Shown here piece after piece: positions 122-2,108 of a DNA stretch of 22,441 nt. A program made the position numbers and the translations under genes. This stretch comes from a virus. The stretch's first letter is position 1. The number at the start of each line of letters is the position of its first letter. The notes beneath the pieces are model-generated. The model had not been told where the DNA came from. It saw only the letters and a list, made by a program, of their open reading frames with translations, and did not search any database. Location: positions 1-22,441 of the IMG/VR virus record IMGVR_UViG_3300025141_000848; one strand, 5' to 3'.

Positions 122-898
122 TTAGAGCGACCCTAGCTCTGCGAAAGCTGCGTCGACTGCGCTGGCTTCACCTTCTTTAGTGGTGTTACCGTATCGCGTA
201 GTCTCAGAACTAACACTCTCGGGGTCGTCAACCTGTGAGTTGACGAAGTTGTCGAGAATAGTCTGTACATCAGCAGCCGACTTTCGCTCAAACAAACCAG
301 AGAAATCTGGAATGCTATCAAGTAGTTCAGCGCACTTGTCGGGCGTCATATCGGCGCAGAGCGCAGAGGAACGACGTCGCGGAACAAGCTTAGTCTGGGG
401 GAAGGAAGCGCCCGGAGGCTTTCCATAAGTCATCGAGAGGTCAGTGCCTGCCTCAGTGTCAGTGATGTCACCATACTCCGGGTTGAGCACAAGAGTCAGG
501 AGGTTCTCATAGGCAGTCTTGCCATACCCCCAGACGCGGATTCCCAACTCTTCCTCGCCACGCACCATGACGGGGCTGAAGAATCGCTGTCGCACGAAGA
601 GGTTCTTAGCCATCTTCTTGCTATGCTCGTCGTTGTTGTCGACACCCTCACGCCAAAGCTGTGAGGCAAATTCGCAAACCGGACAACCATCATCGAAGTT
701 GCGCTTGGGGCAGAGAAATCCGCCCTTCTCCACATTATAGTGGAACCACATCTCCTTGAAGGGGTCTCCGTCTGCAGTAGGAACAATACGAATGTCTTGT
801 TCGCCATCAATAGGCCGCCAAAACACCGAATCTGAGGAAGTTCCCGTTCCTCTAAGTGATGCGAGCTTCTCTCGCATCTTGTCTAAGTTAATACCCAT
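122..898 (-). CDS. gp32: gp32-like single-stranded-DNA-binding protein
   Basis: A 258-aa protein resembling the T4 gp32 family, which coats single-stranded DNA during replication, recombination and repair and organises the phage replisome. The zinc site is visible: H53, C63, C72 and C75 reproduce the His-Cys-Cys-Cys pattern of T4 gp32 (H64, C77, C87, C90) with similar spacing. Just before it are the conserved segments FWRP (26-29) and IRIVP (36-40). The N-terminal ~20 residues are basic, as in the cooperativity domain of the family. The C-terminal ~40 residues are polar and moderately acidic, in the place of the gp32 protein-interaction tail. The ATG has a strong site (AAAGGAG, 6-7 bases upstream). 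The gene starts 29 bases after the tubulin-like gene. Assignment is by recognised motif pattern; I am confident of the family. Confidence 0.9.
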   Translation of the reverse strand: MGINLDKMREKLASLRGTGTSSDSVFWRPIDGEQDIRIVPTADGDPFKEMWFHYNVEKGGFLCPKRNFDDGCPVCEFASQLWREGVDNNDEHSKKMAKNLFVRQRFFSPVMVRGEEELGIRVWGYGKTAYENLLTLVLNPEYGDITDTEAGTDLSMTYGKPPGASFPQTKLVPRRRSSALCADMTPDKCAELLDSIPDFSGLFERKSAADVQTILDNFVNSQVDDPESVSSETTRYGNTTKEGEASAVDAAFAELGSL

Positions 899-927
899 TT
901 TAATCTCCTTTTAGGGTTATAGTACGA

Positions 928-1794
928 TCAGCTAATATCCTGATCGTCTAGCATTTCTTTATATGATTGTACCATAGATGAATATTTTATGCAATAACAA
1001 TATTTTTGTTCATAAGCTGTCTTAAAGACTCCGTATGAGACGTTAATATCTTCTTCCACTCGCGACTTTACAAAGTTGTTAATCTTTCTAAACAATGTAC
1101 CGTCGTTCTTCAAATCTTCCTCACTGATACCATAGTAGTATACCACATCCCTGACACTTGTCAAGGGGTAAAACCACTTTTCTTTATGTTCTCTCTCATC
1201 ATCTGACTCTATGTCTACAACGCCGACCGTTGCGATCCTGCTGATCTGGGCCGGGCTGATAAAGTTTCCGATGACGGGCTCTGTGTTCTTAAATACGTTA
1301 ATCATGTGAATGGTGTTGACGATAGCGTGGTTAAGAGTATCGTAATAGCCGATGATTGACATGTCTCCGATACTCCTCTCTAGCGCGCTGTTGCTTATCA
1401 TGATCACTAACTCTATAATACCAGATCGAGCGTACTCTTGCAAGACATTACTTACGATTTTTTCTTGTTTCTTTTGAGTCTCCGACATTATGGATGTATC
1501 GCCCTCAATGTAAATGACCGTGAGGTTGTTCTTATTTAGTTGCTCAAGCAGGCGCAAGGTGCCCCCTGATATCTGTCCTGCGCCGGCGATGACAACAAAA
1601 ACGTCTTCGCCTGCAAACTTTAGCTTCTTCTTGAGGTTCGGGAAGTTCTCGTCGTAGTCTTCGTGGCTCTTCTTCTTGCGAATGGTGATATCGGCATCCT
1701 CTTGGGCGTCAATACCAAAGGTTTCATATTGCGAAAACTTTGAAAAAGACTTCGCGATATTGCAACCTGCTTTGCCGAGACCTACTACTTTCAT
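928..1794 (-). CDS. Divergent tubulin/FtsZ-superfamily protein
   Basis: A 288-aa protein whose first two thirds read like the nucleotide-binding domain of FtsZ/tubulin. A first strand and loop at 2-12 (GLGKAGCN at 5-12) matches the FtsZ T1 loop. The signature-loop position holds GAGQISGG (71-78) where FtsZ has GGGTGTG. It is followed by a helix, a strand (LTVIYIEGDT, 91-100), a Gln/Lys-rich helix, and a strand ending ISNSALER (133-140) that parallels FtsZ IPNDRLLE. The helix at about 150-167 would be central helix H7. The T7 catalytic loop (NxDxxD/E in FtsZ) is not conserved: the segment is NFISPAQ (177-183). The C-terminal domain is short compared with FtsZ or phage PhuZ. It overlaps the MazG gene by ATGA and precedes the gp32-like gene. 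Family membership is inferred from motif order; function (filament, DNA positioning or a non-polymerising role) is unknown. Confidence 0.7.
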   Translation of the reverse strand: MKVVGLGKAGCNIAKSFSKFSQYETFGIDAQEDADITIRKKKSHEDYDENFPNLKKKLKFAGEDVFVVIAGAGQISGGTLRLLEQLNKNNLTVIYIEGDTSIMSETQKKQEKIVSNVLQEYARSGIIELVIMISNSALERSIGDMSIIGYYDTLNHAIVNTIHMINVFKNTEPVIGNFISPAQISRIATVGVVDIESDDEREHKEKWFYPLTSVRDVVYYYGISEEDLKNDGTLFRKINNFVKSRVEEDINVSYGVFKTAYEQKYCYCIKYSSMVQSYKEMLDDQDIS

Positions 1795-2108
1795 TCCTCT
1801 TCAACCCACTCCAAAATGAGACCCTTGTCGAAGCCGCCCCGCGAAACACGCTTTGCGGTCTTTTCTGCCATAATCGTAAGATCGTTGATCTCTAGTTTGT
1901 CGCAGATAAAATGAAAGATTTCCATAATGTCCGCAGCCTCTTCTGCACAAGGGTCTTCAACAAATTCCTGCACTTCCTCTTGGAGCTTCTTCAGCGCGTA
2001 GTCCAGCAGCTCTGTTTTTGATGCTTTACGTGTGGCGAAGGACTTGCCTGCGTCTGCAATCACTCCAGGGATACGGTCCCTGATTAACTTTTGATAGATC
2101 TTCTTCAT
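1791..2108 (-). CDS. mazG: MazG-type nucleoside triphosphate pyrophosphohydrolase
   Basis: A 105-aa all-helical protein of the MazG-like house-cleaning NTP pyrophosphatase type, which hydrolyses (often non-canonical) NTPs to NMP and pyrophosphate with magnesium. The N-terminal YQKLIRDRIP (5-14) is typical of the short, single-domain MazG relatives. The metal-binding motifs are present: EEVQE (44-48, EExxE) followed by EEAAD (56-60, ExxD). Length fits a single-domain enzyme. The start ATG overlaps the polymerase stop codon (ATGA), and its own stop overlaps the start of the tubulin-like gene in the same way, so the three genes should be translationally coupled. A ribosome binding site (GAAGGAA) lies inside the end of the polymerase gene. 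The likely role is nucleotide-pool control during infection; an effect on host (p)ppGpp, proposed for some phage MazG proteins, is only a possibility. Confidence 0.85.
   Translation of the reverse strand: MKKIYQKLIRDRIPGVIADAGKSFATRKASKTELLDYALKKLQEEVQEFVEDPCAEEAADIMEIFHFICDKLEINDLTIMAEKTAKRVSRGGFDKGLILEWVEEE

Follow-up and report, generated by a model that had tools for sequence, protein, structure and literature searches.

FtsZ uses its T7 element to hydrolyse the GTP held by the neighbouring subunit, and T7 and H8 are also part of the longitudinal contact between subunits. The guanine is contacted by an asparagine of loop T6 and an asparagine or aspartate of helix H7, while a glutamate contacts the ribose. 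Viral members of the superfamily are known mainly from the nucleus-forming jumbo phages and from the TubZ partition systems. Phage tubulins of the PhuZ/TubZ type centre the phage DNA (PMC13282480), and the PhuZ protein has the T7 catalytic aspartate (PMC3678025). In the highly diverged FtsZl-1, described by Makarova and Koonin in 2010, the GGGTG(S/T)G loop is kept, and the T6-H7 region and the C-terminal domain escaped recognition (PMC2875224).

The gene considered here lies in a virus fragment of 22,441 bases, the whole of which was analysed and is referred to below as the window (Table 1). An earlier note on this DNA had described the reading frame as a divergent relative of tubulin and FtsZ. 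The frame was recovered at the same position, on the minus strand, and the motifs quoted for it, including ISNSALER at residues 133-140 and the long central helix, stand at the residues given. Two scans of IMG/VR returned 129 and 145 relatives of the protein, and at least 136 distinct further members are present in this collection, the lowest identity being 35%. The residue counts below refer to an alignment of 137 distinct sequences, with the window's own included and identity down to the same level. Given the many IMG/VR relatives and the dN/dS of 0.04-0.07 between diverged close pairs of genes, the open reading frame is far from a product of chance and is, on this evidence, a real gene under strong purifying selection. 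No relative was recovered by tblastn of the sequenced phages of INPHARED, or by a scan of the GTDB genome contigs, in which none of the 83 pattern matches was a relative, and the family appears to be restricted to viruses as far as the IMG/VR, GTDB, and INPHARED collections show.

Table 1. Features of the tubulin-like gene and its surroundings; positions are those of the window unless a locus is named.
Feature	Position	Strand	Remarks
Gene with predicted divergent tubulin/FtsZ fold	928..1794	-	CDS 931-1794, stop 930-928, ATG start, 288 aa
T1 phosphate loop	1759..1782	-	Residues 5-12, GLGKAGCN; aligned by hhalign with FtsZ T1
T4 "signature" loop	1561..1584	-	Residues 71-78, GAGQISGG replacing GGGTGTG
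T6 loop to helix H7	1288..1398	-	Residues 133-169; hhalign alignment; helix 150-169 modelled
T7-equivalent loop	1234..1287	-	Residues 170-187; shortened, no conserved acid, no H8 in either model
Reduced C-terminal activation domain (predicted)	946..1236	-	Residues 187-283; S7, S8, H10, S9, S10, no H9; DSSP
Putative RNA hairpin at tubulin-like stop / gp32 leader	924..947	-	Arms 947-940 and 931-924; loop 939-932 (GATATTAG)
Extended -10-like element TGGTACAAT	966..974	-	Inside tubulin-like gene, encodes "MVQ"; conserved in leader set
gp32 ribosome-binding site AAGGAG	905..910	-	Within A-rich leader
gp32 single-stranded DNA-binding protein	122..898	-	Directly downstream; PF08804 E 9e-13, phrog_1192 E 5e-20
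MazG-like small protein	1791..2108	-	Upstream; position and motif only, no library match
DNA polymerase A domain fragment, 395 aa	2105..3292	-	PF00476 E 1e-14; same operon
Inserted methyltransferase-type gene	L069 7333-8250; L071 6780-7748; L261 3950-4903; L264 3957-4922		PF01555 shown for L071

The fold was predicted with AlphaFold2 for two proteins that are 39% identical, the window protein, modelled on the family alignment (pLDDT 88.4, pTM 0.89), and a divergent member from a contig of 203,859 bases (L241; pLDDT 93.4, with each of the five models exceeding 91, and pTM 0.91). Both models contain the GTPase domain, the central helix H7, and the C-terminal activation domain of the tubulin/FtsZ fold. 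The 50 best matches of each model in a Foldseek search of the PDB are FtsZ, TubZ, and CetZ only, with a best E of 1.5e-11 for the window protein and 3.4e-13 for L241, and a query TM of 0.60-0.74, while the identity with FtsZ in the structural alignments is 11-17%. At the level of the sequence, the match is weak. In hhalign, the family profile follows that of ten FtsZ and FtsZ-like proteins in collinear order across residues 2-257 and scores 30.2 (P 0.003), above the maximum of 19.5 obtained with 30 column-shuffled profiles and the 18.2 of the reversed profile, and also above the 23.3 that PhuZ reaches against the same FtsZ profile. The PF00091 model gave an E of 0.1, below the cut-off, no relevant match was found in PHROGs or NCBIfam, and the PDB sequences yielded no match, whether the query was the single protein or the profile. 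The positive control, the PhuZ of phiKZ (gp39), was recognised by PF22334 and phrog_4733, with an E of 5e-7 for PF00091, whereas neither phrog_4733 nor PF22334 matched any member of the tubulin-like family.

The earlier note had allowed for a different Rossmann family, devoid of the tubulin fold and of the C-terminal domain. What emerged from the comparisons with FtsZ, by structure prediction and by profile, is the tubulin fold with its C-terminal domain. The predicted fold is well supported, and the protein almost certainly belongs to the tubulin/FtsZ superfamily.

The residues of the nucleotide pocket were assigned through the hhalign alignment with FtsZ, rather than by superposition. The glycines G5, G7, and G10 of T1 are found in all 134 members with letters at these positions. 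The GxGxxGxN form attributed to this first loop is present in the window protein, but its asparagine is retained by only 82 of the 137 members. The superfamily signature [SAG]GGTG[SAT]G is absent, as had been proposed, and the loop takes the family form GAGxISGG, with serine or threonine at residue 76 in 133/137. The asparagine N135, at the position of FtsZ N166 in T6, is present in 134/137, and N155, at the position of FtsZ D187 in H7 (an asparagine in E. coli FtsZ), is found in every member (137/137). Residue 151, at the position of FtsZ F183, is tyrosine or phenylalanine in 123/137 (tyrosine in the window protein), H163 is likewise invariant (137/137), and D29 occurs in 134/137, while E105, at the ribose-contact position of FtsZ, is less constant, being glutamate in 110/137. 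As N135, N155, the serine or threonine at 76, and the T1 glycines are conserved, the guanine-reading pocket is kept in the family, and the protein is likely to bind GTP or GDP.

The catalytic end of the molecule has a different character. The T7 acid had been described as missing, and indeed none is conserved at residues 173-186, where 25 of the 137 members have no aspartate or glutamate at all. The commonest acidic site of the T7 region is position 183 (D/E in 100/137), and residue 186 is arginine or lysine in 137/137 (R186 in the window protein). In both AlphaFold2 models, the segment from H7 to S7 lacks any helix as long as four residues, and S7 is joined to S8 without an H9. No FtsZ-type C-terminal conserved peptide on a linker was found, the linker itself being absent. 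The lack of a conserved T7 acid, together with the missing H8 and H9, makes canonical hydrolysis doubtful, and a T7-driven reaction of the canonical type is considered improbable. The shortening of T7 and the absence of H8 and H9 also deprive the subunit of a large part of its canonical lower interface, for which reason the assembly of filaments is not assured, and the prospects for the formation of filaments or oligomers are judged to be evenly balanced.

The protein thus shares with FtsZ the fold, the order of the loops, the T1 glycines, the serine or threonine of the T4 loop, the asparagine of T6, and the asparagine or aspartate of H7. It differs from FtsZ in the GAGxISGG that replaces GGGTGTG, in the T7 acids, which are not conserved, in the absence of H8 and H9, and of a linker or C-terminal conserved peptide, and in being encoded by a virus, within a replication operon. 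Like PhuZ and the phage TubZ of the phiKZ-type jumbo phages, it is phage-encoded and has a tubulin fold; PhuZ, however, is matched by PF00091, PF22334, and phrog_4733, whereas the family is matched by none of these, and has no conserved T7 acid. Its large contigs (148-204 kb) also differ from the PhuZ phages, being T4-like in their replication and structural genes, with no chimallin found. The FtsZl-1 protein is similarly a highly diverged member of the superfamily in which canonical filaments are doubtful, but the pattern is the opposite here, with an altered signature loop and a recognisable T6-H7 region and C-terminal domain. The best viral structural match is A0A6J5RW92, the "FtsZ Cell division GTPase" of an uncultured Caudovirales phage (E 2e-11, TM 0.74 on the query), which is a protein of 452 aa with 16% identity to the tubulin-like protein.

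The earlier suggestion that the family is undescribed agrees with its absence from the profile libraries and from the literature searched on phage FtsZ and tubulin in T4-like and marine viruses, a search that lay mostly outside the subscription journals. Within the literature covered, papers on the Far-T4 phages mention neither FtsZ nor tubulin. The new element is a viral cytoskeleton-type protein, unrecognised by the standard family databases, in a large group of uncultured marine T4-like viruses.

The evidence on the genomic context is strong. The gene occupies the place in a T4-type replication operon that had been noted for it, with the MazG-like gene upstream and gp32 downstream. The name "MazG" is a reading of an EExxE...ExxD pattern, and this gene is present in the loci of most, not all, of the members. 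Other genes of the window are also T4-like, including the major head protein (phrog_138, E 6e-70), the tail sheath, the tail tube, the baseplate hub and wedge, and the head-tail adaptor. Three large contigs (193,778, 165,065, and 170,861 bases) show synteny with the window. In the one that was scanned in detail, genes for DNA polymerase III alpha, a DnaB-type helicase, a 5'-3' exonuclease, RecA, and ribonucleotide reductase follow a short way downstream, and both of the others have counterparts of them.

Among the closest gp32 relatives, 231 loci (redundant by contig) have enough upstream sequence to be testable. The tubulin-like gene directly precedes gp32 in 225 of these; in the remaining 6 it also lies before gp32, from which it is separated by an inserted gene, and no gp32 locus of the clade lacks it. 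In 188 of the 189 loci that allowed the test, the polymerase A fragment is found no more than 2 kb upstream of the tubulin-like gene. In a Mantel comparison of 87 distinct loci, the genetic distances of the tubulin-like gene correlate with those of gp32 (rho 0.87) and of the polymerase (rho 0.88), values reached in 0/500 permutations. The gene is strictly linked to gp32 and the polymerase A fragment, and is inherited vertically with them. The nearest isolates, by gp32 and the neck protein, are Flavobacterium phage immuto and Microcystis phage Mel-JY01, in which the surroundings of gp32 and RecA form a comparable operon, with other small genes in the place of the tubulin-like gene, and all 59 of the Mel-JY01-like loci with enough upstream sequence are without it. 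This is thus a clade-specific core gene of marine T4-like phages, and its presence is most simply explained by acquisition in the ancestor of the clade. The PF00091 model found no match in seven large contigs, and no chimallin (phmmer with phiKZ gp54), PhuZ, or other FtsZ was detected by sequence in three contigs of 165-194 kb, which are possibly incomplete. The tubulin-like protein is not a component of a Z-ring, and there is no sign of a phage-nucleus system.

Some further features of these genomes were recorded. They are T4-like genomes in which a DNA polymerase III alpha with PHP, alpha, finger, and HHH domains (L169 1316-4756 in contig G003, with equivalents) is accompanied by a stand-alone polymerase A fragment, which adjoins the tubulin-like gene. 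Between RecA and gp32 in contig G003 are a Smr-like gene of 74 aa (L169 15474-15698), with a match below the cut-off, and a gene of 188 aa (L169 15695-16261), which is 41% identical in two other contigs. A phage-encoded tmRNA with the tag ANDADYDLALAA is also found in this contig (L175 10121-10432), and a search of the GTDB genome contigs with the degenerate coding pattern of this tag returned no match, and hence no host.

The end of the tubulin-like gene coincides with an inverted repeat that would fold into a hairpin in the gp32 leader RNA. In 44 distinct sequences, 99.7% of the cells are paired and 6 of the 8 pairs have changed on both sides, a level of pairing reached by 0/500 shuffles. 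The members that stop earlier, with a TAG inside the stem, carry a compensating change in the opposite arm and keep the inverted repeat. The peptide DDQDI(S/G), which ends most members, was considered as an FtsZ-like C-terminal interaction peptide, and this reading was rejected, given that the changes in the DNA of the inverted repeat are compensatory, that the early-stopping members still hold the repeat, and that the tail varies or is lost. The conserved tail, whose coding DNA overlaps the promoter-like site of gp32 and the strongly covarying hairpin, probably reflects the leader hairpin of gp32, and not a function of the protein.

The extended -10-like element TGGTACAAT is a candidate for the gp32 promoter. 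In L069, L071, L261, and L264, a DNA methyltransferase-type gene is found between the tubulin-like gene and gp32, and in these four loci, and also in L221, a hairpin of this kind is immediately preceded by a TTGACA-type promoter-like sequence. No Rfam family matches the leader hairpin at the gathering score, and inspection by eye gave no pseudoknot between the hairpin loop and the leader downstream of it. A second pairing of 4 bp, of ACCC with GGGT of gp32, is compatible, and is almost invariant and thus uninformative. In T4, the gene 32 operator is composed of a folded 5' element and an unstructured leader, and overlaps the upstream open reading frame (PMC535899). The present leader resembles it in that a folded 5' element precedes an unstructured, A/U-rich stretch containing the ribosome site, and in the overlap with the upstream frame, and differs from it in being a simple hairpin with no demonstrated pseudoknot. 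It is a natural hypothesis, and a candidate, that this hairpin may be an autoregulatory operator of gp32 outside the T4 group.

Taken as a whole, the explanation preferred here, with moderate confidence, is that the protein belongs to a new and very divergent subfamily of the tubulin/FtsZ superfamily, confined to viruses, and acts as a GTP-binding filament or switch protein, with slow or no hydrolysis, in the service of phage DNA replication. The GTP or GDP would be bound in the T1-T6/H7 pocket, and the binding of GTP would lead to head-to-tail assembly or to a conformational switch. As the canonical T7 acid is absent, hydrolysis would be slow or would not occur, and the result would be either stable, non-dynamic filaments or a switch governed by the nucleotide state. 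The protein may then act with the replication machinery of the phage, for example by organising or positioning the replicating DNA, a role suggested by the position of its gene in the operon. A more specific version, in which the clade builds GTP-bound, essentially non-hydrolysing tubulin filaments devoid of T7/H8, which are core to DNA replication and need no phage nucleus, is tentative, and somewhat unlikely.

Other explanations fit parts of these data. Membership of a Rossmann family of the NAD(P)- or TrkA-type, in place of the tubulins, might be read from two profile matches below the cut-off, TrkA_N (E 6e-4) and a phosphogluconate dehydrogenase model (E 0.002). This identity was dropped because of the fold, since neither model has a dehydrogenase among its 50 best structural matches; the T6 and H7 asparagines and the C-terminal domain also agree with tubulin/FtsZ, and the reversed and shuffled profile controls fail, which leaves the Rossmann identity extremely improbable. 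A dynamic, GTP-hydrolysing tubulin similar to PhuZ or TubZ, which treadmills to centre or segregate the phage DNA, would be in keeping with the shared superfamily and with the centring of DNA by phage tubulins of such a type (PMC13282480), and E183 or R186, with the frequencies given above, may serve as the alternative catalytic residue. Against this are the T7 without an invariant acid, entirely devoid of acids in 25 members, the absence of H8, H9, and a long C-terminal tail, and the three large contigs with no chimallin, PhuZ, or FtsZ homologue found by sequence, and a dynamic tubulin is considered distinctly unlikely.

A non-polymerising switch that senses nucleotides and regulates phage replication or the supply of dNTPs, while still unlikely, is a somewhat better candidate. 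It would account for the loss of the elements of the canonical lower interface, and for the presence of polymerase A, the MazG-like protein, gp32, RecA, DnaB, and ribonucleotide reductase in the operon; a simple switch, on the other hand, could do with less than the high conservation seen in both domains and the C-terminal domain that is retained, although neither feature is proof of polymerisation. The FtsZ protein is known to be targeted by phages, and the similarity of the fold might also indicate an inhibitor or decoy of the host FtsZ, halting cell division during infection. At 11-17% identity, however, co-assembly with FtsZ is unlikely, and the slow evolution of the gene and its strict coupling to gp32 and the polymerase point to a task internal to the phage. 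Given this low identity and the inheritance of the gene within the core replication operon, interference with the host FtsZ is the weakest of the ideas put forward in the earlier note, and is very improbable.

If the GTP-bound, essentially non-hydrolysing filaments do exist, they would add a functional class to the viral tubulins, alongside the spindles of PhuZ and the partition filaments of TubZ. The covarying hairpin in the gp32 leader provides a concrete, testable candidate for gp32 autoregulation beyond the T4 group. The family also lends itself, as a natural test, to asking what share of the T7/H8 catalytic interface is dispensable for a working tubulin, and a core, replication-linked tubulin in a widespread lineage of marine T4-like viruses would widen the view of where and how viruses use cytoskeletal proteins.
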